Part shown: one piece after another, positions 27,206 through 48,976 of the stretch | How the letters are laid out: every line of letters begins with the position of its first letter | Numbering within the stretch: position 1 is the first letter of the stretch | Assembly (NCBI GenBank): GCA_025923455.1 | Contig: JAICFW010000058.1 | Location: forward strand, 1 to 49,520 | DNA from: Nitrososphaeraceae archaeon | GTDB taxonomy: Archaea; Thermoproteota; Nitrososphaeria; Nitrososphaerales; Nitrososphaeraceae | Reading direction: 5' to 3' | Length of the DNA: 49,520 bases | The notes under the pieces: model-generated | What the model was told of the DNA's origin: nothing | Database searches by the model: none | What the model saw: the letters and a program-made list of their open reading frames with translations, nothing else | Program-made: the position numbers and the translations under genes

Positions 27206-27991
27206 ATGCCAGCTAGAAGCTTATGGCAAGGTAGTATCTCGTTTGGACTTGTAAATATACCAGTTAAACTATATTCAGCAACAAATAACAAGGAATATGT
27301 TTTCAATCAATTATGCCAAAACGGACATAGGATTAGATACAAGAAATGGTGTCCGGAGGAAGAAAGAGAGGTTCCATTTTCAGAGATAAAAAAAGGTTAC
27401 GAAATTGAAAAAGACAACTACATCGTATTTGAAAAGGAAGAACTTAACAAGGTAAAATTAAAAACAACTCATTCAATTGATATTAAGGAATTTATAGAAT
27501 ACAAAGAACTTGATCCAATCTTAATAGATAACAGCTACTATGTGGCTATTGATCCGAAAAAAGGAAACGAAAAGGCCTATGTACTCTTAGTAAAAATATT
27601 AAATGAAAATAACTTGGTGGCCATCGGCAAAGTTGTTCTAAAGGACAGGGAAAACGTGATAGCTTTGAGACCTTATCAAAGAGGTCTTGTTATGCACGTC
27701 CTGAATTATCTAGACGATATGAAGCCTGTGGATGAAATCCCCGAAATGGGAAACACAAAAGCAAAATTAGATCCACAAGAAATTTCGCTCGGCAAGATAC
27801 TAGTACAAAAGTATCGCAGCAAAGAGTTTGATATTGGAGATTATTCCGACACTTATGTTCAAGAACTAAGGAAGCTCATAGAGGCAAAGAGTAAGGGAAG
27901 AAAGTTTGTTTCGTCCGCTCCAAAGGTAGCAAAACCCACCAAGGATCTTCTTGAGGCTCTCAAGGCCAGCATCGAAACCGAGAGGAAGTAA
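27206..27991 (+). CDS. ku: Ku protein (bacterial-type NHEJ)
   Basis: The 261-residue protein is a full bacterial-type Ku: MPARSLWQGSISFGLVNIPVKLYSAT at the start, KKWCPEEEREVPFSEIKKGYEI, KGNEKAYVLLVKIL and ALRPYQRGLVMHVL in the ring core, and a basic C-terminal tail (KSKGRKFVSSAPKVAKPTKD). Ku homodimers ring DNA ends and bring in LigD. The matching LigD lies at 34357-37071 in the same direction. An archaeal genome with a complete bacterial-type end-joining pair is uncommon. A TATA-like TTATAAT lies about 28 bp upstream, so the mRNA is probably leaderless. Confidence 0.95.
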   Translation: MPARSLWQGSISFGLVNIPVKLYSATNNKEYVFNQLCQNGHRIRYKKWCPEEEREVPFSEIKKGYEIEKDNYIVFEKEELNKVKLKTTHSIDIKEFIEYKELDPILIDNSYYVAIDPKKGNEKAYVLLVKILNENNLVAIGKVVLKDRENVIALRPYQRGLVMHVLNYLDDMKPVDEIPEMGNTKAKLDPQEISLGKILVQKYRSKEFDIGDYSDTYVQELRKLIEAKSKGRKFVSSAPKVAKPTKDLLEALKASIETERK

Positions 27992-34356: not shown

Positions 34357-37071
34357 TTGTATTGCAAGTACAATTGTGGATCGCCAGAAGGAGTGAGTGA
34401 AACGAGAAAACCTAACACGGCGCTGGTCAGTTATAATAAGAAAAGAGACTTTGAAAAAACGAGTGAACCCAAGGGAGTAATAAACCCTAGTGAGAAAAGT
34501 ACGAAATTAAGAGATTTTGTTGTCCAGAAACATGATGCGTCTCACCTTCACTATGACTTTAGACTGGAATCTGAGGATGGTGTTCTAAAATCTTGGGCGG
34601 TACCCAAAGGACCTTCAATGGATTCCACCATCAAGAGACTGGCAGTATTGGTCGAAGATCATCCTCTAGACTATCTACACTTCGAAGGAACAATAGAACC
34701 CGGAAATTACGGCGCTGGTACGGTGATAGTGTGGGACACTGGAAGTTATACCAGTAAAGAGAACCTTTTACAGCAAATGGAAAAAGGAAAAATCTCAGTT
34801 GAACTCTTTGGGAACAAACTAAAGGGTCTGTTTTCTTTGGTCAAAACTAAGAGGGATAATCAATGGTTGTTGATTAAATCGAAAGATCAATACGCATCAA
34901 GCCAAGATGTAACAACCGAACAACCAGATTCCGTCTTGACTAGCAGGTCGAATTCGGACATTGAAAATGAAAGCATTAACAAGAGAAATAAAAGGAAACT
35001 CAAGACTAATAATCTCACATCTTCTATTGATTCTAAGAACGATAAACAAACAATAAGTTTTCAAAGAATAAAACCTATGCTCGCTTCGCCATTTGAAAAA
35101 GCCTTTAATCGCAAAAATTGGGTATTTGAAATTAAATGGGACGGTGTAAGGGCAATTGTGTTCAAGAATAGAAAGAATTTTAAGATTCAGTCGAGAAATG
35201 GTAACGATATTACAGATAAATATCCTGAAATATTAAACGACTTAAAACTCTCGCTGAAAGAATGTGAGTCTGTCGTAGTAGACGGTGAGATAGTTGTCCT
35301 AAATCAGGAAGGCGTCCCAGATTTTCACGCCCATCAACACAGAATGCATGTTCAAAATAGTAGAGAGATAATGGCTCTTTCTGTAGAAACTCCTGCGACC
35401 TATTACATTTTTGATGTACTGTATAAAGATGGCAAGGATGTTAAATCCCTAGGTTATATCAAAAGGCGAAGAACGTTATTAAGTATAGTAAGGATAAATA
35501 AATCAATTAGAATATCCGACTATATTGAAGAAAAAGGAGTGCAGGTGTTTGAGAATAGTAAGAAATTAGGCCTTGAAGGAATAGTAGCCAAACATAAAGA
35601 TAGTATGTACACAGAGGGTATAAGGTCCAAAGATTGGTTGAAAATAAAGAACACCAAGACGCAAGACTGTGTAATTGTAGGTTATACAAAAGGAGAAGGC
35701 GCTAGAGGCAGATATTTTGGATCGCTCGTGCTGGCTGTATACTCTACGCAAGAAAGAAAATTAAAGTTTGCGGGGCATGTAGGGACTGGCTTTGATGATG
35801 AAACTCTTGAAACTGTATATGCCAGGATCAAAGGCTACGAAATTGCATCTCCTCCGGTAGATAAAGTTCCCTACCTCAATCGTAAAACGACCTGGCTGAA
35901 GCCGATAAATATTGCCGAAGTAAAATTTGGCGAGTGGACCAAGGATGGAATATTGAGGGCACCCGTCTTCTTAAGAATTCGCGAAGACAAAAGACCCGAA
36001 GAGTGCATTACTGAAGCGGACAATCCTACTGACAGTTCTCAAATTAGAATCAATAAAAAGAGTGAAAATAGCACTAGTATTACCAGTGCCAATAAAGTAA
36101 AGTTAACAAATCCCGATAAGATATACTGGAAGGCCACGAAGGATCATCCCAGGTTTCTGAAGAGGGATCTAATAGAATATTATGAGCGCATTAGCGCCTG
36201 GATATTACCACATTTAAAAGATAGACCTCTTTCCCTTAGCCGTTATCCAAATGGAATCAGCGGTAATTCATTCTATCAAAAAGATTGGGATAAGAAAAAG
36301 CCAGACTTTGTAACTACAGCAAAAATTCATTCTGAACAAAGAGGAGATAGTATTAACTACATTATTTGTAACAACATGGAGAGTCTTCTTTGGATAGCGA
36401 ATTTGGGATGTATTGAGATGCATCCGTGGTACAGTAGAATTAAAGAGTTTGACAAGTGCAGCACCTCCACTCAAATGTTTGAAGAAAAATGTGGACTTAA
36501 TTTTCCTGACTTTATTGTTTTTGATCTAGATCCGTACATCTATTCTGGTAAAGAAAAAAAAGGGCAGGAACCAGAATACAACGCAGCCGGGTTTAAAGCC
36601 GCAGTAGAAATTGCTTATGAATTAAGAGATATTTTAGAAGGGCTGAAAATCCACTGCTATGTAAAAACATCGGGAAAGTCAGGATTGCATATTTATGTTC
36701 CTATTTCCAATACTTATCCCTATGAACAAACCAAGAATTTTGCTGAGGTAATGGCCAAAATGATGGTTTCAAAATTTCCAAACAAAGTTACAACGGAATG
36801 GAATACTTCAAAGAGGAAAGGCAAAGTATTTTTCGACTATAATCAAAATGCGAGGGGCAAAACAATAGCGTCTGTTTACTCCTTACGTCCTACTCCAACG
36901 GCAACCGTTTCAATGCCTATTTCTTGGAAAAAATTGGATTCCATCTTTCCGACTGATTATAATATATTAACTATCTCGAAAATTATTAGGAGCGATGGTC
37001 CCTGGCAAAATATTCTCTCAGATAAGCAAGACCTTAAAAAAATAATTTCTGAAATGAAAGAGATAGTCTAG
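34357..37071 (+). CDS. ligD: LigD: ATP-dependent DNA ligase D (PE-LIG-POL)
   Basis: The 904-residue protein has all three LigD domains in the order phosphoesterase, ligase, polymerase. PE (about 47-180) has VVQKHDASHLHYDFRLE and GNYGAGTVIVWD. A polar linker (180-235) follows. LIG (about 236-550) has adenylated Lys K260 in FEIKWDGVRA, then VDGEIV and EGIVAKHKDS. POL (about 580-900) has DLDP (723-726), H778 in SGKSGLHIYVP, and SVYSLRP. It seals double-strand breaks with Ku (27206-27991). The start is TTG at 34357; an in-frame GTG at 34393 lies close to a GGAG. The large size and order match the multi-domain bacterial type rather than the separate enzymes described in Methanocella. Confidence 0.95.
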   Translation: MYCKYNCGSPEGVSETRKPNTALVSYNKKRDFEKTSEPKGVINPSEKSTKLRDFVVQKHDASHLHYDFRLESEDGVLKSWAVPKGPSMDSTIKRLAVLVEDHPLDYLHFEGTIEPGNYGAGTVIVWDTGSYTSKENLLQQMEKGKISVELFGNKLKGLFSLVKTKRDNQWLLIKSKDQYASSQDVTTEQPDSVLTSRSNSDIENESINKRNKRKLKTNNLTSSIDSKNDKQTISFQRIKPMLASPFEKAFNRKNWVFEIKWDGVRAIVFKNRKNFKIQSRNGNDITDKYPEILNDLKLSLKECESVVVDGEIVVLNQEGVPDFHAHQHRMHVQNSREIMALSVETPATYYIFDVLYKDGKDVKSLGYIKRRRTLLSIVRINKSIRISDYIEEKGVQVFENSKKLGLEGIVAKHKDSMYTEGIRSKDWLKIKNTKTQDCVIVGYTKGEGARGRYFGSLVLAVYSTQERKLKFAGHVGTGFDDETLETVYARIKGYEIASPPVDKVPYLNRKTTWLKPINIAEVKFGEWTKDGILRAPVFLRIREDKRPEECITEADNPTDSSQIRINKKSENSTSITSANKVKLTNPDKIYWKATKDHPRFLKRDLIEYYERISAWILPHLKDRPLSLSRYPNGISGNSFYQKDWDKKKPDFVTTAKIHSEQRGDSINYIICNNMESLLWIANLGCIEMHPWYSRIKEFDKCSTSTQMFEEKCGLNFPDFIVFDLDPYIYSGKEKKGQEPEYNAAGFKAAVEIAYELRDILEGLKIHCYVKTSGKSGLHIYVPISNTYPYEQTKNFAEVMAKMMVSKFPNKVTTEWNTSKRKGKVFFDYNQNARGKTIASVYSLRPTPTATVSMPISWKKLDSIFPTDYNILTISKIIRSDGPWQNILSDKQDLKKIISEMKEIV

Positions 37072-37217: not shown

Positions 37218-37670
37218 CTACTCTACATGCTTTTCTATGATTGATTGTATTCTTCCACCAAATTTTCTTTTATACTCAGATCTGCATGAAGTGCAGCAGA
37301 AGAACCGTTCATAATTAGCAAACTTGAAAACTTGTGGAACTCCGGCAATAATTCCATGACAAAAATCACAGTCTAAGACTATCTTCAAACCCTTTTTTAA
37401 TTTCTTGAATTGTTGAATACTATTATCATTATGATAATTCTTATCTTGTATTCCAAAATTAGTATTAGCATTTACTTTTGCAACTTTTCCAAAATCAAGT
37501 ACTGGTACGACTCGTTGGATGAAACCTACATTTACCAGTCTTTCAAATCTTGCTTTGACGGTAGGAGTTGTAATACTAGTTTCACGCGAAATCTGACGAA
37601 AAGACTTACGTCCATCCTCAAATAGCGACTTTAGTATTGATATGTCATAGTCATCAAGTTCAACTGGCAT
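37218..37670 (-). CDS. AsnC-type HTH regulator with TRASH metal-sensing domain
   Basis: From the ATG at 37670 the product is 150 residues; a TTG at 37694 would add eight. The N-terminal part is an Lrp/AsnC winged helix (LDDYDISILKSLFEDGRKSFRQIS..., TPTVKARFERLVNVGFI). The C-terminal part is a TRASH-type site with C-x2-C-x20-C-x3-C (DCDFCHG, then FFCCTSCRSEYKRKFGG). Related archaeal regulators sense copper and control copA. Here copA lies 3 kb away, and both promoters share the palindrome TTTACATTTGTAAA. The usual AsnC RAM domain is replaced. Confidence 0.88.
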   Translation of the reverse strand: MPVELDDYDISILKSLFEDGRKSFRQISRETSITTPTVKARFERLVNVGFIQRVVPVLDFGKVAKVNANTNFGIQDKNYHNDNSIQQFKKLKKGLKIVLDCDFCHGIIAGVPQVFKFANYERFFCCTSCRSEYKRKFGGRIQSIIEKHVE

Positions 37671-37703
37671 GATGATTGAAGGGTGCAGAGTCAAATATTA
37701 AAT

Positions 37704-37717
37704 TTTACATTTGTAAA
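37704..37717. promoter_or_regulatory. copper-type operator at the regulator promoter
   Basis: The 14-bp palindrome TTTACATTTGTAAA (arms TTTACA and TGTAAA, 2-bp centre) is identical to that at 40838-40851, and the match extends to 20 bp. Here it lies just downstream of a TATATAC box (37719-37725) for the minus-strand regulator, between the box and the expected transcription start, the position of a repressor. Confidence 0.7.
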
Positions 37718-37809
37718 GTATATACCATAATATCATTAGTGATATCTCTCATACAAAGCTAAATCCCTATCTTTTTTTATATTGAAAAAAGTAAAGTTTA
37801 CTGTTAGTC

Positions 37810-38217
37810 TTGAAACTTTACATCGGTTGTAGCGGCTGGAGTTATACTTCTTGGCAGGGTCCCTTTTACCCTCAAAATATGGAGAATAGGGCATGGCTGC
37901 CGTATTATTCTCAAATTTTTAACTATGTAGAAATAGATTCCACTTTTTACAATATTCCAAGTGAATTAATGGTAAAAAATTGGGATAAAAGAACTCCTGA
38001 TAATTTTAGATTTACAGCCAAATTTCCTAAAATAATAACACATGATAAGAAATTCAAAAATGTGGAAAATGATTTAGAATTATTCTACAAAAGAATGGAA
38101 CCACTTAAAGATAAGATTTTGTCGTTACTAATACAGTTACCTCCCTCTTACAAAGTTAAAGAAGGACCTTTTTTATTTAGTCCCGTCCTATCTCCCAATC
38201 AGGTTTTAACTTTTTAA
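37810..38217 (+). pseudogene. truncated DUF72 protein
   Basis: The frame opens with the DUF72 pattern (LYIGCSGWSYTSWQGPFYP, then YYSQIFNYVEIDSTFYNIPS, FRFTAKFPKIITHD and LLIQLPPSYKV) but ends after 135 residues where the family usually has 230-260. The last about 18 codons are not family-like and coincide with hairpin element copy 3, which begins at 38161. No continuation of DUF72 is seen in any frame downstream. The start is TTG at 37810, with AGTAAAGTTTACT just upstream. This looks like a gene cut by recombination or insertion at the element. Confidence 0.75.
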
Positions 38218-38303
38218 TATTTTATTGTTCATAATTGAGTAACGTCAAAGCGTCTTACATCGCTGATGGGCCAACCTATCTACTACGATTCAGGGCCCAT
38301 CAG
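38161..38303 (+). repeat. dispersed hairpin element, copy 3
   Basis: The block starts GAAGGACCTTTTTTAT, has GGAC paired with GTCC, CCCAATCAGG and GGTTTTAACTTTTT, and 44 nt later the perfect hairpin CTGATGGGCC (38263-38272) with GGCCCATCAG (38294-38303). Order and spacing equal those at 31415-31575. The first stem arm (CCTG.TTGGGA) is missing and is replaced by DUF72 coding sequence. Both the loop start AAC and the end ATTCAG match the 31.4 kb copy. Confidence 0.8.
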
Positions 38304-38338
38304 TATTCTAAAATCTCTTTAAACAGTAACCGAAACTT

Positions 38339-38872
38339 TCACTCATCTTCACCAGTTTCAGTTTCTTCACTTTCATCCTGTTCCTCTTCTGTGCCATTTT
38401 CTTTTGCCTCATCCTCGACATCTGATTGCAACTGTGCCAAGGTATTGTTACTACTGGTACTGCTGTTATTAGATTGAGAAAGGGCCAATTTGTTTTTTAG
38501 ATTCTCAAGAAATCCCCCCGCTTTTGGACTTGAACTTGAGCCTGTTGATGGATCCTGTAAAACTCCGTTATCTTCCTGGGAATCAGGAGTAGTTATATAC
38601 TGCAGTTCTGGATCTTCACAACTGACTACCGAAAATGAACCATCAGCATCCTTTTGTATAGTGCATGTTTGGCAATACCTCTCTCCGAGAGTTTGGCCAG
38701 GAACATTCTCTCTCCAGCAACAAGTCATTGAAGTATCTCCGCCTGAGCAATTCTTACTATCCCACCATCCTCGTGACGGCGGTACAGCACAAGCATCAGG
38801 TATGGATGAAGCAAAATAAAGAAATGGAACTAACAATATAACGCTAGAAGCAAAAACAGCAGATCTTTGCAC
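38339..38872 (-). CDS. secreted Cys-rich protein with acidic tail
   Basis: The 177-residue protein has a signal peptide (VFASSVILLVPFLYFASSI) and a Cys-rich domain (NCSGGDTSMTCCWRENVPG, then RYCQTCTIQKD and VVSCED), followed by a long Ser/Asn/Glu-rich tail (from about residue 100) ending EETETGEDE. Seven or eight Cys probably form disulfides outside the cell. A similar design, with an acidic linker, appears at 39402. Family not recognised. Confidence 0.7.
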   Translation of the reverse strand: MQRSAVFASSVILLVPFLYFASSIPDACAVPPSRGWWDSKNCSGGDTSMTCCWRENVPGQTLGERYCQTCTIQKDADGSFSVVSCEDPELQYITTPDSQEDNGVLQDPSTGSSSSPKAGGFLENLKNKLALSQSNNSSTSSNNTLAQLQSDVEDEAKENGTEEEQDESEETETGEDE

Positions 38873-38958
38873 GAATAGTATTCATCTTGTCTTTTATAAA
38901 AACTTTGGAGGTTTGAATGTTACCCTTGTGACCTGGAAGGTAAAAGTCGGCGGATAAA

Positions 38959-39099
38959 TTAACGATCAAGAAGCAATCCTATTAACGTACCAAAGGCGAC
39001 AATCGACCCTATCGCCACTATCAAGCCTATTAACTTTAGGTGATCCTTGTATGACTTAATTTTCTCACCAGACGGCTTGTATCCTTTCGGAAGGGTCAC
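38959..39099 (-). CDS. 46-residue single-span membrane protein
   Basis: A GTG start gives TLPKGYKPSGEKIKSYKDHLK, then one span (LIGLIVAIGSIVAFGTLIGLLL) ending DR. A basic, cytosolic head followed by a Gly-rich span is typical of small membrane subunits. A stop lies five codons upstream in frame, so a start near here is required. No family assigned. Confidence 0.5.
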   Translation of the reverse strand: MTLPKGYKPSGEKIKSYKDHLKLIGLIVAIGSIVAFGTLIGLLLDR

Positions 39100-39401
39100 A
39101 TCATCAAATATTTGTTACCATTTAATAAATTCGTCGGATAATAGTTGTTCTATAGACGTGGTTCAATTTAGCAATTCAAGGATTTAGAATACAAAGTGCT
39201 TTTAGGAGAGGGAGCGTATAATTTGGTCTTCGATCTTCAAGAAAATTTTCTTTAATATTTTTGGAATGATATTCACTTTCAAACAAACTGACGCGAGGTA
39301 ATTCATTCTACCTTCATTCCATAGAAAAATACTTTTATGCATATACGCTATTAACCTATTCAACGAATAGAATCATCAAATACGGACTAGTATCTCCTTT
39401 A
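39100..39401. other. intergenic stretch without recognised gene
   Basis: AT-rich sequence with a TATA-like run near 39335-39350 that probably serves the gene at 39402. No repeat, RNA or further gene is seen. Confidence 0.4.
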
Positions 39402-40046
39402 ATGTTTCTTCTAGCAGTAAGTCTTGTATTTACCGGCGAATATTCGAAAGGACAAAGTACAAGTGATGTTTCTAAATTTAGTACACGGCCCGATATTGGA
39501 ACAGAAGAAGAACCAACAATAAACGATGATGCAGAAGAGGAAGAAACAATGGAAGATGATGAGACAGAGCCGACGGATGAGGAAGAAAATGATACCGTTA
39601 CAAGCGTACCTCCCAAGAGATCTTTTGGAGCAGATTTGGGGTTAGACAATCTCACCACAGCACCCACAGAGGAACCCGCGAAACTGATATTCAGTTCATG
39701 CCAAAAAGATTTCCCTAATCCTATACGTGCCGAAGATATTAATAGATATAGACCAATTAGTTGTAATGTACCAGGTGCTTCCCCAAATGATAATGTCGTA
39801 GTTTCTAACACACCACTTGACCCTCGTGGGTGTAATTTCATAGCCTCTTCACGAGTTTCGGCGCCAAATAATGTATCTATTCTATTGTTTGACGGAAGAG
39901 GAACTCCGGAGAGTTTTGTGAAGGGCGTGGAGAGAGGCGGCTTGCATGGCCATGAGGCACATTGCGATAGGCTGTGGATAAAAGGTACAGTGATATTTTC
40001 CATTATTGTATTCCGTCCGGAAGTGCCGATATTATCGGTTCATTAG
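39402..40046 (+). CDS. secreted acidic protein, C-terminus possibly frameshifted
   Basis: The 214-residue frame has a short signal-like start (FLLAVSLVFTGEYSKG). The hydrophobic part also extends upstream of the ATG (IIKYGLVSPLMFLLA) without a standard start codon. An acidic linker (EEEPTINDDAEEEETMEDDETEP) leads to a folded domain with Cys in FSSCQKDF, ISCNVPG, RGCNF and AHCDR. The last about 23 residues look unlike the rest. In another frame the DNA reads YCIPSGSADIIGSLEELQDKNR and stops at 40073, suggesting a frameshift near 39970. Confidence 0.6.
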   Translation: MFLLAVSLVFTGEYSKGQSTSDVSKFSTRPDIGTEEEPTINDDAEEEETMEDDETEPTDEEENDTVTSVPPKRSFGADLGLDNLTTAPTEEPAKLIFSSCQKDFPNPIRAEDINRYRPISCNVPGASPNDNVVVSNTPLDPRGCNFIASSRVSAPNNVSILLFDGRGTPESFVKGVERGGLHGHEAHCDRLWIKGTVIFSIIVFRPEVPILSVH

Positions 40047-40289
40047 AAGAATTACAAGATAAAAATAGATAAAGACTAAATTACTTTGATTTATGGATGT
40101 CTTTTTCACTTCTGCCTTCTTTCCTAATATCTATTATTTTTGAGTGTTACAAGCGAGTGAAACAAATAGCAAACATGTAGAATGTTTATTGAAGTGGGTG
40201 AAAAACTTACATACATCTGTACAAAGTATTAGTATCACCTTGAAAATTGTCTATGCGACTGTCATGTGCTTAATATTATTATTTCGTTT
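40047..40289. other. gene-poor stretch, first part
   Basis: No convincing gene is seen. A frame from 40144 contains a signal-like run (MCLILLFRLAIFSL) that could be the start of a decayed small secreted protein continued by another frame in the next segment. Confidence 0.3.
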
Positions 40290-40445
40290 AGCGATATTTT
40301 CCCTGTGTGGGAAGTCTCTGGGAGACCTGCAGGATTTGTTCCGAGTTGCAAAGATGGATGCAACAGGCATCCAATCACTGCAGGCCCTGGGGTGGATGCA
40401 TGTCCTGGGGTGGAAACACAATGCATTTTCGGAACCCACTTAGAT
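40290..40445. other. GC-rich island with short repeats
   Basis: This segment is clearly richer in G and C than its flanks. It has two copies of CCTGGGGTGGA (40384-40411), two of CTGCAGG, and small hairpins GTCTC/GAGAC and TGGATGC/GCATCCA. One plus-strand frame reads a Cys-rich peptide (PSCKDGCNRHP, then DACPGVETQC and VCQC), without a good start. It may be a decayed secreted protein or foreign DNA. From 40446 to 40833 I see nothing further. Confidence 0.35.
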
Positions 40446-40837
40446 GTAAGTGTATGTCAATGTGTTCGAAATTAAATACCTCCTTAGATACCTGTTGCCC
40501 GATTTCTTGAATAAAATCACGAAGTTTAAAGTACGCTTCCCTTTTCATTTATTATCAGTTCAAAGTGTTTTTGACAGTACTTTTGGATTCTTGTTATCTT
40601 TGGGTACTTATTTCCAACCTGGACTGACCTGTTTAGTGGCAAAAGCATCAGAAGTATTACTTAAAAACGTCTGAATATCTAGCAATTAAACGCCTTTTCA
40701 TTGATATGGAGACGACCTGGACTGTTGTCACCGGTCCATTTTTAGTGTCACAAACTGCCATTTCCTGAGCACGAAAAAATCGATATATTCGATTTTCCTA
40801 AAAATAGACGTTTAATAACACATACGCGTCTTAAAAT

Positions 40838-40851
40838 TTTACATTTGTAAA
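40838..40851. promoter_or_regulatory. copper-type operator at the copA promoter
   Basis: TTTACATTTGTAAA, identical to 37704-37717. Here it lies upstream of a TTATATTT box (40861-40868), which in turn is about 25 bp before the TTG start of copA. The site is therefore upstream of the TATA box, an activator-like position, and the mRNA is probably leaderless. Confidence 0.72.
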
Positions 40852-40889
40852 GTTCAATTGTTATATTTGGTCTAGTTTACTATAAGATA

Positions 40890-43055
40890 TTGGCAAAAGA
40901 TCCCATATGTGGCATGTTTGTGGAAGAAAAACTTGATTCAATCAGATACAGTACGAAAGGTAAAGAGTATTTGTTTTGCAGTAATCAATGTCTGCATGAA
41001 TTCATAGAGCCAGAAAAGGAGCTCAAGAAATTAAAAATTCACGTGGCGATAAGCATTGGCCTAACAATACCTATATTAATTTTGAGCTTGCCTCACATGC
41101 TTCCTACCCAATTCGGTCAATTTCTTCCTATGGACTTGATGCATAACTCAAGTTATATTATGTTGGTATTAGCTACCCCTTTACAATTTTGGATTGGCTG
41201 GAGATTCTATAAGGGCTTTTGGGACGGGGTTAAGGCAAGAGCATCAAACATGGATACACTTATAGCAATAGGAACTTCGGCAGCATATCTGTATAGCGCT
41301 GCAGTAACAATCACTCCAGATCTCTTTCCATTTAAAGCAGTTTATTTTGAAACTGCTGCTGTAATTATTACTTTGATACTTATGGGTAGATTGCTAGAAA
41401 CAAGAACAAAAGAAAGAGCTTCTATCGCAGTAAGAAAATTACTTGATTTGCAGCCACGTATGGCTAACGTATTGCGACCAACAACTAGTCCTTCTGGACA
41501 AATCCTCGAAACGGAAACTGAAATTCCTATTGAGCAAATTAGGGAAGGGGATATATTGATAGTTAGACCTGGTGAGAGTATTCCCACCGACGGACTAATA
41601 ATAGAGGGTGCATCCTCATTGGACGAATCCCCTATTACCGGAGAGAGTATTCCTGTTGATAAAACAAAAGGTGAAGACGTTATTGGCACAACTATGAACA
41701 AGACAGGCTTGTTAAAGATTAAAGCTGCAAAGGTCGGACAAGATACAGTACTCTCACAGATAATAAATCTTGTTGAAGAAGCTCGGACCGGCAAAGCTCA
41801 AATGCAAAGGACAGTAGATCAGGTTGCAAAATATTTTGTTCCTGCAATAGTTATCACTGCGATCGGCGTAGGGCTAGGTTGGTATTTTGTGGGAAACATA
41901 GGTTTCACATATAGTCTTTTAGCTTTCGTTTCAGTAATCATTATTGCCTGTCCTTGTGCCTTGGGAATTGCCACGCCAGCTGCATTGATGATGGGCTCCG
42001 CTAAGGCTTCTGAGTACGGTATACTATTCAAGGGTGGAGAATATCTGGAGATTGCAAGTAAAGTACAAACAATAGTATTTGACAAGACTGGAACACTAAC
42101 AGAAGGAAAACCATCTGTTACCGATATTTATGCTATATCTGAATCCAAAATTGGAGAAAAGGAATTGCTGCGATTGGCTGCTATTGCAGAATCGGGCTCT
42201 GAACATCCATTAGGACAGGCAATTGTAAGGAAAGCAAAAGAAGACAATGCGATTCCAAGTCCAGAATTAGCCGAATCAATTGCAGGGCATGGATTAATTG
42301 CGAAGTATCAAAACCATGTATTTATGGTAGGAACAAGGAAACTTATGGTTGATAATAAGATTTCAATTTCTCAAGATGTTGAGTCAAAGTTGAGCGAATT
42401 CGAAAATGAGGGCAAGACTGCTGTCTTGGTATCAATAGATTCTAAACTTTCTGGAATTTTAGCTCTTGCTGATACATTAAAAAATACTGCCAAGACTGCT
42501 GTGTGGTCCTTAAAATCTGATGGGAAAGAGGTCATACTGCTTACAGGAGACAATGAGAGAACAGCAAATCATATAGCAGCTGAATTAGGAATCAAAAATG
42601 TTATGTCCCAAGTTATACCACAACAAAAAGAAAAAGTAATCGCAAAACTCATGTCGGAGAAGAAAATAGTAGCCATGGTAGGAGACGGAATTAATGATGC
42701 ACCAGCATTAGCTAGAGCTGACTTGGGAATAGCTATTGGATCAGGGACAGATGTCGCAAAAGAAACTGGTGGTATTATACTAATAAAAGGTGACGTTAGA
42801 GACGTATCCATAGCACTCGAGCTAGGTAGGAGAACAGTTTCCAAGATTAAACAGAATCTTTTCTGGGCTTTTGCATATAATACAGGATTGATACCAATTG
42901 CTGGAGGTGTATTAGTTCCGCTACTCGGAGTCGGAATATTTGGATGGTTACCAATGTTGGCAGCACTGGCAATGGCTATGAGTTCTGTAACTGTAGTTGG
43001 TAACTCTATTTTACTTGGAAGATACAAACCAAATTTCTCTCATGCACCATTATAG
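40890..43055 (+). CDS. copA: Cu+-exporting P1B-type ATPase with N-terminal TRASH/YHS domain
   Basis: The 721-residue protein has P-type ATPase motifs: C354-P-C356 in the ion path (IIACPCALGIATPAALM), phosphorylated D398 in FDKTGTLTEGKP, SEHPLGQAI, GDGINDAPALA, and the C-terminal YNTGLIPIA and MSSVTVVGNS of copper carriers. Instead of HMA domains it begins with a metal module, C7 (DPICGM) and C30-x3-C34 (FCSNQC), a TRASH/YHS fold. Eight spans are expected. It should export Cu+ from the cytosol. The start is TTG. The AsnC-TRASH gene 3 kb away shares its operator and is the likely regulator. Confidence 0.93.
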   Translation: MAKDPICGMFVEEKLDSIRYSTKGKEYLFCSNQCLHEFIEPEKELKKLKIHVAISIGLTIPILILSLPHMLPTQFGQFLPMDLMHNSSYIMLVLATPLQFWIGWRFYKGFWDGVKARASNMDTLIAIGTSAAYLYSAAVTITPDLFPFKAVYFETAAVIITLILMGRLLETRTKERASIAVRKLLDLQPRMANVLRPTTSPSGQILETETEIPIEQIREGDILIVRPGESIPTDGLIIEGASSLDESPITGESIPVDKTKGEDVIGTTMNKTGLLKIKAAKVGQDTVLSQIINLVEEARTGKAQMQRTVDQVAKYFVPAIVITAIGVGLGWYFVGNIGFTYSLLAFVSVIIIACPCALGIATPAALMMGSAKASEYGILFKGGEYLEIASKVQTIVFDKTGTLTEGKPSVTDIYAISESKIGEKELLRLAAIAESGSEHPLGQAIVRKAKEDNAIPSPELAESIAGHGLIAKYQNHVFMVGTRKLMVDNKISISQDVESKLSEFENEGKTAVLVSIDSKLSGILALADTLKNTAKTAVWSLKSDGKEVILLTGDNERTANHIAAELGIKNVMSQVIPQQKEKVIAKLMSEKKIVAMVGDGINDAPALARADLGIAIGSGTDVAKETGGIILIKGDVRDVSIALELGRRTVSKIKQNLFWAFAYNTGLIPIAGGVLVPLLGVGIFGWLPMLAALAMAMSSVTVVGNSILLGRYKPNFSHAPL

Positions 43056-47306: not shown

Positions 47307-47702
47307 TCAAGGTTTAGAATCAGACCATTTTCTCATCCACTGCATTAAGTTAATAACAGATTCTACCAGTTCCTGTCCCTTAGGAGTAAGCTTGTATTCT
47401 ACTCTTGGAGGTATCTCGTTATATGCTAGTCTTTCCAAAATTTTACCTTCTTCCAGTTCCTTTAATCTACGAGCCAGTGTCTTACTGCTAAACCCTTTCA
47501 GTAATTTTCTAAATTCCTTATATCTTACTGGCTGGGAAGAACAACAAAGAGGTATTAACATCTCTAAAGTTCCCCTTTTAGTAATTAACTTCCGAACTTT
47601 AGCGGTTTCCTTCATCAGAATAGCTGCGTTATATCCCTCAAAATTACACCCATCCTGATATATTGGAAGTTGGTTTACTTTCTGTCCATTTGTTTCCGAC
47701 AT
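47307..47702 (-). CDS. HxlR-type winged-helix regulator of the ars cluster
   Basis: From the ATG at 47702 the product is 131 residues; longer readings run into the divergent arsM gene. It has the HxlR pattern: a conserved early Cys (DGCNFEGY), TLEMLIPLCCSSQPVRYKEFRKLLKGFSSKTLARRLKELEEGKILERL, and PRVEYKLTPKGQELVESVINLMQWMRKW. The CC pair (C53-C54) next to the recognition helix could bind arsenite. It diverges from arsM with 63 bp between starts, in which the arms TGTTTACTA and TAGTAAACA flank a central ATTTAAAT. Confidence 0.85.
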   Translation of the reverse strand: MSETNGQKVNQLPIYQDGCNFEGYNAAILMKETAKVRKLITKRGTLEMLIPLCCSSQPVRYKEFRKLLKGFSSKTLARRLKELEEGKILERLAYNEIPPRVEYKLTPKGQELVESVINLMQWMRKWSDSKP

Positions 47703-47709
47703 GTCTCTC

Positions 47710-47757
47710 TGTTTACTAAAGTATCCTCGACAATTTAAATAGTTTCTGTAGTAAACA
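47710..47757. promoter_or_regulatory. ars divergent promoter with long inverted repeat
   Basis: TGTTTACTA (47710-47718) and TAGTAAACA (47749-47757) are perfect inverted arms with a 30-bp gap. At the centre lies the palindrome ATTTAAAT (47733-47740), a TATA-like core about 30 bp from the arsM start and 34 bp from the regulator start, so one core could serve both directions. Binding to the arms would flank and control both promoters. Confidence 0.65.
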
Positions 47758-47765
47758 ATAATGAC

Positions 47766-48539
47766 ATGAAACAAGAAACATTGAAGGCAAAAATTAAAGA
47801 ACGATATGGCAAAATTGCCTTGGAAGGTAACCCAGAGCGTTGTTGCGGTCCAGAATGCTGCAGCTCTTCTGAACCCAATCCACAAGTCTCATCGATTTCT
47901 GTCGGCTACAATGTCAAGCTATTAGATTCTATACCACAGTCATCAATACTTGGTCTGGGTTGTGGAGCTCCACTTAATTTCGCTAATTTAAAGGCTGGAG
48001 AAATTGTAGTAGATTTAGGCTCAGGTGCTGGAATAGATGCATTCTTGGCATCCAGAGAGGTTAAGGAAAATGGTAAAGTAATTGGAATAGACTTTACTGA
48101 TGAAATGCTAGATAAAGCAACCTCTGCGGCAAAAGAGAATGGATTTACCAATGTTGAGTTTCGAAAAGGAGACGTTGAAAATAACATTCCAGTTGATGAT
48201 AATACAGTGGACGTTGCTATCAGTAATTGTGTTATCAACTTGGCTTCTGATAAAGTTAAAGCATTCAAAGAAGTTTATCGCATCCTGAAGAAAGAAGGTA
48301 AGGGAAGGATAATAATTTCAGATTTAGTTACAAGTAAAGAGGTTGAGGGAGAATCAGTTAATGCTGAAAATTGGTGTAGTTGCATTGACGGAGCATTAAC
48401 AAAGAAAAATTACATTAACAGCATAAAGGAAGCGGGTTTTGAGAATGTCAGAGTTTTAAATGAACAGTTATACATGAAGGAAGATAAGACTGGTGGAAGA
48501 AATATATCAAGCATAATTGTCGGAGCAATGACAAAATGA
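47766..48539 (+). CDS. arsM: arsenite S-adenosylmethionine methyltransferase
   Basis: The 257-residue protein has the SAM site VVDLGSGAGID (81-91) and the arsenite Cys set in ArsM order: C66 in LGLGCGAP, C155 in SNCVINL, and C204/C206 in NWCSCIDGAL. The N-terminus has two further Cys pairs (RCCGPECCSS, 25-34). It adds methyl groups to As(III). The start codon is about 30 bp from a TATA-like core, so the mRNA is probably leaderless. It overlaps arsC by ATGA, so the two are translationally coupled. Confidence 0.94.
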   Translation: MKQETLKAKIKERYGKIALEGNPERCCGPECCSSSEPNPQVSSISVGYNVKLLDSIPQSSILGLGCGAPLNFANLKAGEIVVDLGSGAGIDAFLASREVKENGKVIGIDFTDEMLDKATSAAKENGFTNVEFRKGDVENNIPVDDNTVDVAISNCVINLASDKVKAFKEVYRILKKEGKGRIIISDLVTSKEVEGESVNAENWCSCIDGALTKKNYINSIKEAGFENVRVLNEQLYMKEDKTGGRNISSIIVGAMTK

Positions 48540-48976
48540 AAATATCATTTGGCAAGCCTAAATTAGAATCAGAAAGGATAATCCTTTTTGTGTGTGTGGA
48601 AAACGCTGGTAGAAGTCAAATGGCTGAGGGCTTCTTTAACAATAGTCCTCCAGAAGGATACAGAGCAGTTAGTGCTGGAACAAAGCCAGTATCGCAAATT
48701 AATCCTGTTGTTATTGATGTCATGAGGGAAGTTGGTATCGATATCACTAATCAAAAATCTAAGGAAATTACAGAGGATATGATGCGAAACTCTTTCAAAG
48801 CTGTGAATATGGGTTGCATGGAGAAGGATTCATGCCCGACACTATTTTTGCCAAATGTTTTGGATTGGAATTTGGAAGACCCCAAAGGTAAATCTTCTGA
48901 AAAAGTGAGGGAGATAAGAGATGAAATTGAACAGCGAGTAAAAGAACTTGTCGCAAGTATCAAAATTCACAAGTAA
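48536..48976 (+). CDS. arsC: arsenate reductase, low-molecular-weight phosphatase type
   Basis: The 146-residue protein has the P-loop C20-x5-R26 (FVCVENAGRSQMAEGFF) and the later Cys pair C94 and C100 (MGCMEKDSCP), as in thioredoxin-linked ArsC, and WNLEDPKGK near the catalytic Asp. It reduces As(V) to As(III), the substrate of ArsM. It begins inside the arsM stop codon (ATGA) and ends in overlap with the MIP gene. The family and role are clear. Confidence 0.93.
   Translation: MKISFGKPKLESERIILFVCVENAGRSQMAEGFFNNSPPEGYRAVSAGTKPVSQINPVVIDVMREVGIDITNQKSKEITEDMMRNSFKAVNMGCMEKDSCPTLFLPNVLDWNLEDPKGKSSEKVREIRDEIEQRVKELVASIKIHK

Follow-up and report, generated by a model that had tools for sequence, protein, structure and literature searches.

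Comparative analysis of a 49,520-nucleotide stretch of DNA from a Nitrososphaeraceae archaeon (GCA_025923455.1, contig JAICFW010000058.1; here called the window) revealed a 14-bp operator that stands both at the gene of a TRASH-domain regulator and at copA, the gene of a heavy-metal P1B-ATPase. We propose that the regulator is a copper sensor of the CopR/CopT type that acts on this shared operator, activating copA and repressing itself, and that an ancestral operator was split by an insertion. We give this reading a probability of roughly 0.6. The features of the locus are listed in Table 1.

Table 1. Features of the regulator/copA locus (positions in the window)
Feature	Position	Strand	Remarks
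TRASH regulator, CopR/CopT type, 150 aa	37218..37670	-	HTH_AsnC aa 5-52, disordered linker ~56-96, TRASH 100-137
TRASH domain of regulator (aa 100-137)	37260..37373	-	Pfam
TATA-like box of regulator, TTAATAT	37695..37701 (read 37701-37695)	-	+3 from operator, ~27 bp before ATG
Left copy of 20-bp exact direct repeat AAATTTTACATTTGTAAAGT, operator inside	37700..37719	+	single copy in sister genome L063 8568-8587
Operator copy at regulator, TTTACATTTGTAAA	37704..37717		window and genome scans; conserved in orthologue promoters
Inserted segment (3.1 kb)	37720..40833		absent between regulator and copA in G055, G048, G051, G047 and G046
Right copy of 20-bp exact direct repeat AAATTTTACATTTGTAAAGT, operator inside	40834..40853	+	
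Operator copy at copA, TTTACATTTGTAAA	40838..40851		38 bp before start codon; scans; equal spacing in orthologues
TATA box of copA, TTATATTT	40861..40868	+	+10 from operator, ~26 bp before TTG start
copA, heavy-metal P1B-ATPase, 721 aa	40890..43055	+	TTG start, N-terminal YHS
YHS domain of CopA (aa 3-44)	40896..41021	+	PF04945

Pfam matches of the regulator comprise an AsnC-type helix-turn-helix (HTH; PF13404, 2e-10, aa 5-45) and an archaeal TRASH domain (PF08394, 2e-8). With the YHS domain of the pump, this confirms the earlier observation that both products carry a TRASH/YHS metal module. Across 18 orthologues the HTH core and the TRASH cysteines C101, C104, C125, C126 and C129 are invariant, and the recognition region GRKSFR..SR....TPT..AR..RL is nearly so. 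A structure model of moderate confidence (mean pLDDT 67) consists of the HTH, an unstructured linker (aa 56-96, low confidence) and the TRASH domain, and its close structural matches cover the HTH (Lrp HTHs) and little else. No RAM/AsnC_trans_reg domain was among the Pfam matches up to an E value of 10, which places the protein outside the full-length Lrp/AsnC class (HTH plus RAM); its oligomerisation may therefore differ from that of Pyrococcus furiosus CopR. CopA scored above the curated cut-offs of TIGR01525 (609.6 bits, cut-off 346) and TIGR01511 (550.6 bits, cut-off 397). The membrane signatures read in its translation are IIIACPCALG (CPC), KQNLFWAFAYNTGLIP and MAMSSVTVV (YN/MxxSS, Cu(I) type), and we take the CPC and YN/MxxSS signatures to be those of P1B-1.

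A scan of the whole window returned TTTACATTTGTAAA at the two positions reported by the first-pass annotation and no third full copy, and the genome-wide scan bore this out. The palindrome is TTTACA-N2-TGTAAA, with a central TT that is not symmetric. Nor is the motif frequent in the genome: TTTACANNTGTAAA, in which the two central bases are free, has exactly two matches in 1.93 Mb, both at the regulator/copA locus (reversed control, one), so that the proposal of a common operator stands. One-mismatch sites are not in excess genome-wide (17, versus 15 for the control) and none of the 13 examined shows a promoter layout; we therefore rejected them as further operators. At an AT content of 65%, 0.75 copies of TTTACANNTGTAAA per genome are expected from composition and 0.5 from the control rate, and a chance repeat of an AT-rich string could be considered on these figures. 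However, both copies sit in two linked promoters with a fixed spacing that is conserved across many genera, and this cross-genome conservation refutes the chance reading, to which we attach a negligible probability.

In 70 genomes of the window's family (168 Mb), the operator occurs 184 times, compared with 43 occurrences of the reversed control, and its copies stand at the starts of orthologues of the TRASH regulator, of YHS-copA pumps and of other metal genes. Among family regulators selected on the basis of the protein alone, 29 had readable DNA upstream, three of which (L017, L019 and L032) were added from a separate reading. An exact operator lies just upstream of the start in 22 of these and a one-mismatch operator in one. 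The remaining six, all from genus g7 (L016, L020, L025, L027, L028 and L031), have no operator in their own promoter. The copA-type genes of genus g7 keep it, and autoregulation may have been lost there. Operators were also found at some, though only some, Nitrosopumilaceae-like regulators (L187-L190 and, by coordinates, G121, G229 and G231). Copy number follows the presence of the regulator in both families: genomes of the Nitrosopumilaceae-like family f9 hold 4.96 copies with a regulator versus 1.59 without (p 2e-8), and those of the window's family 3.09 versus 0.93, while the reversed control showed no significant difference in either.

Some operator copies are also present in genomes where no regulator was recognised. 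Together with the g7 regulators that have no site, these could point to another transcription factor as the owner of the operator, with the regulator as a bystander. We consider this very improbable, because operator and regulator co-occur in two families, the operator is located at the regulators' own promoters, the HTH is invariant and the operator resembles an experimentally mapped CopR motif. The comparative evidence thus lends good support to the earlier claim that regulator and copA have the operator in common, and that one regulator would serve both.

Alignment of the promoters on the operator revealed two spacings. A TATA-like box begins at +10 in 33 of 35 copA promoters (shuffled, 0.5) and in 13 of 16 promoters of a YHS mini-gene (shuffled, 0.3), and at +1 to +4, never at +10, in 27 of 34 regulator promoters (shuffled, 2.4); since the compared promoters are related, the shuffle figures are not independent-sample probabilities and the spacings describe a pattern rather than independent events. 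The window conforms at copA, where the operator lies upstream of the TATA box as first described. At the regulator, it had been placed between the TATA box and the start, an arrangement that we could not confirm: the conserved box TTAATAT sits between the operator and the ATG. The sequence TATATAC (37718-37724) was rejected as the regulator's TATA box, as it falls at the junction with the insert and shows no conservation, and as non-divergent regulator promoters conserve a TATA-like box downstream of the operator and none upstream. Given boxes at +3/+4 for the regulator and +10 for copA, the operator is, on this alignment, upstream of both, and closer at the regulator by about 6 bp, or half a turn of the helix. 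The geometric argument originally made for opposite effects, with the operator on different sides of TATA, was thus wrong. The TFB-binding stretch of the regulator promoter should lie inside the operator, the BRE sequence being assumed. Both boxes stand about 26-27 bp before their start codons, which suggests leaderless transcripts for both genes, with the start sites assumed. In relatives with the divergent arrangement, the regulator could also make use of the copA TATA as read on the opposite strand.

How the two copies arose is visible in related genomes, all of them Nitrososphaeraceae/Nitrososphaerales drafts. In G055, G048, G051, G047 and G046, a gap of about 85 bp with a single operator separates the regulator from a divergent copA; G055 and G048 are the nearest relatives (regulators 95-96% identical to the window's). 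Divergent, adjacent pairs exist in further genomes as well, whereas in the window the two genes are 3.2 kb apart. The flanks of the inserted segment match G055, the left one as far as 37719 and the right one from 40834 on, with an overlap that is the 20-bp repeat, which indicates that 3.1 kb were inserted and the operator was duplicated. Judged from these flanks, the two operator copies derive from one shared divergent operator that was separated by the insertion. Ancestrally, this one operator would have served both divergent promoters; entry of the segment, with duplication of the operator as a 20-bp direct repeat, would have left both genes with a full operator and core promoter of their own.

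The split, as read from the assembled contigs, could alternatively be an assembly join at the repeat, a reading that bears on the origin of the second copy and not on operator function. In its favour, the genome is a draft of 162 contigs and the repeat is exactly 20 bp, that is, k-1 for k = 21; the close sisters are also unsplit. However, the insert is DNA of the same lineage (98% identity to G055), and G052 and several further genera likewise have separate operators for regulator and copA. Moreover, assemblers normally finish at larger k, where a 20-bp overlap is unable to join contigs. We therefore regard an assembly join as unlikely.

No inverted repeats were found at the ends of the 3.1-kb insert, and its listed ORFs comprise a DUF72 fragment and two without a match. 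Lacking terminal inverted repeats and any recombinase (transposase or integrase) among these ORFs, the insert was rejected as an insertion sequence or integrative element. It was likewise rejected as a duplicate of another locus in the window's own genome (G000): its part at 38292-38839 is single-copy there, and in G055, where its counterpart (G055:C237:5250-5794) is 98% identical, it occupies a different genomic place. The DUF72 ORF (37810-38217, plus strand) is truncated, its profile match being confined to the first 96 of 217 positions. Up to 38166 it shares 83% identity with a paralogue at G000:C15:939-1334, beyond which it diverges; it is probably a gene fragment brought by the insert. 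A short repeat built around a palindromic core (CTGATGGGCC...GGGCCCATCAG) lies at 38195-38307; it is dispersed, with similar stretches on contigs C8, C27, C32, C82 and C119 of the window's genome. The ORF at 38339-38872 (minus strand) encodes a secreted-looking, cysteine-rich protein with no Pfam match.

In other genera, the operator is also found about 37-41 bp before the start of further genes. These candidate targets, most of them of metal-handling types, encode a 47-aa YHS protein, HMA proteins, one of them CopZ-like, an HMA-ATPase, a Usp, a cysteine-rich DUF326 protein, a DHA2-like MFS transporter and an ODP-type beta-lactamase-fold protein. The stand-alone YHS protein (MAKDPVCNMNVDEKTAKH...), a possible copper chaperone, is under the operator in genera g5 and g10 (L085, L081, L093, L076 and others), and its gene usually lies just beyond the 3' end of the regulator gene. 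A second regulator copy, ending within the TRASH domain, is present at L072 2459-2916, where one operator separates it from the divergent gene of a DUF326 cysteine-rich protein.

Elsewhere in the window, a Ku-domain protein (27206-27991) and a LigD-like protein with ligase, 3'-phosphoesterase and primase-polymerase domains (34357-37071) suggest an end-joining pair of bacterial type. The region 47307-48976 encodes an HxlR-type regulator, a methyltransferase resembling arsenite methyltransferases and a low-molecular-weight phosphatase/arsenate-reductase-like protein, presumably an arsenic cluster.

The window regulator shares with the CopR/CopT type an AsnC-type HTH, the TRASH cysteines, a neighbouring copper P1B-ATPase and a semi-palindrome directly upstream of BRE/TATA (the BRE being assumed). 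In our proposal, a regulator dimer would bind the TTTACA..TGTAAA half-sites through its AsnC-type HTH, and the C-terminal TRASH domain would sense Cu(I). At copA, the TATA box is fixed at +10 and the operator immediately precedes the TFB-binding stretch, from which it follows that the copper-loaded regulator may help TBP/TFB to bind and so turn on the pump. At the regulator gene, where the TATA-like box begins at +3/+4, the bound regulator would overlap the TFB site on a nearly opposite face of the helix and hold down its own transcription.

The closest experimental precedent is P. furiosus CopR (PF0739), which is divergent from copA (PF0740) and binds the semi-palindrome TTNNCAWWWTGNNAA immediately before the BRE; it activates copA and represses copR by blocking TBP/TFB (PMC7830388). 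Both systems pair an HTH-plus-TRASH regulator divergently with copA and have several target promoters, and the window operator shares with TTNNCAWWWTGNNAA the outline TT..CA-W-TG..AA. Unlike the P. furiosus motif, it has a central spacer of two instead of three bases and an almost fixed TTTACA/TGTAAA. The window regulator also differs in having no apparent His-rich tail, its shared promoter is split by 3.1 kb, and the archaeal phylum is another one. From the dual role of P. furiosus CopR and the common operator outline we infer copper-dependent activation of copA and self-repression, which the 6-bp difference in operator-to-TATA spacing also supports.

Two other assignments of sign were weighed. 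The main rival, in which the regulator represses both promoters until copper releases it from the DNA, is unlikely in our view but deserves attention: the operator adjoins both TATA boxes, and repression of both genes is reported for CopR of Thermococcus onnurineus, a species closely related to P. furiosus, in the account cited in PMC7830388. Against it, copA and the YHS mini-gene have their TATA fixed at +10 with the TFB stretch free, as is typical of an activator site, and copA activation is described for P. furiosus, Saccharolobus solfataricus 98/2 and Halobacterium salinarum, as summarised in PMC7830388. Activation of both genes, with positive autoregulation, could be read from an operator upstream of a conserved TATA-like box at each. 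It is less likely still, as the regulator's box abuts the operator (+3/+4) with the TFB-binding stretch falling within it, and as the regulator's expression in several archaea is described as low and independent of copper (summarised in PMC7830388). Activation of copA with self-repression thus remains our preferred assignment. More tentatively, and at somewhat less than even odds, we extend it to a spacing code across the Nitrososphaerales, in which TATA at +10 would mean activation (pump, YHS mini-protein, HMA chaperone, transporter) and TATA at +3/+4 self-repression, and in which operator duplication would preserve the code at both genes when inserted DNA breaks a shared promoter.

The regulator type, its divergent arrangement with copA and the dual role are already known. 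Ptr2 of Methanocaldococcus jannaschii is a full Lrp protein with a RAM domain and is not known to have a TRASH domain or a metal, and the TRASH regulator of H. salinarum is the one named VNG1179C. As an Lrp-family activator that stimulates TBP binding, Ptr2 resembles the proposed action at copA (as cited in PMC7830388). Compared by description, CopT/CopR of the S. solfataricus cop cluster and the H. salinarum regulator are likewise TRASH-domain, Lrp-like proteins next to or controlling copA, and are reported as positive regulators in the accounts cited in PMC7830388. The CopA2/CopZ/CopT cluster of Nitrososphaera viennensis, with a thaumarchaeal CopT beside a P1B-ATPase and CopZ (PMC7785015), is probably the same system as that of the window. 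The N. viennensis study gave no operator for these genes and described how they are regulated as an open question; the motif that it published, TTCSGSMTTTGWACYANT, stands upstream of copC/D and MCO genes and differs from the window operator (PMC7785015). In the literature searched, most of it openly accessible, we found no operator described for the cop genes of ammonia-oxidising archaea.

The split locus indicates how two divergent genes that share an operator can be parted with both promoters retained. Ammonia-oxidising archaea rely heavily on copper enzymes, and the control of their cop genes has been called an open question (PMC7785015). With a 14-bp operator, a probable regulator, a list of candidate targets and a spacing rule that predicts opposite signs, this control becomes testable, and the regulon may be predicted in uncultured genomes.
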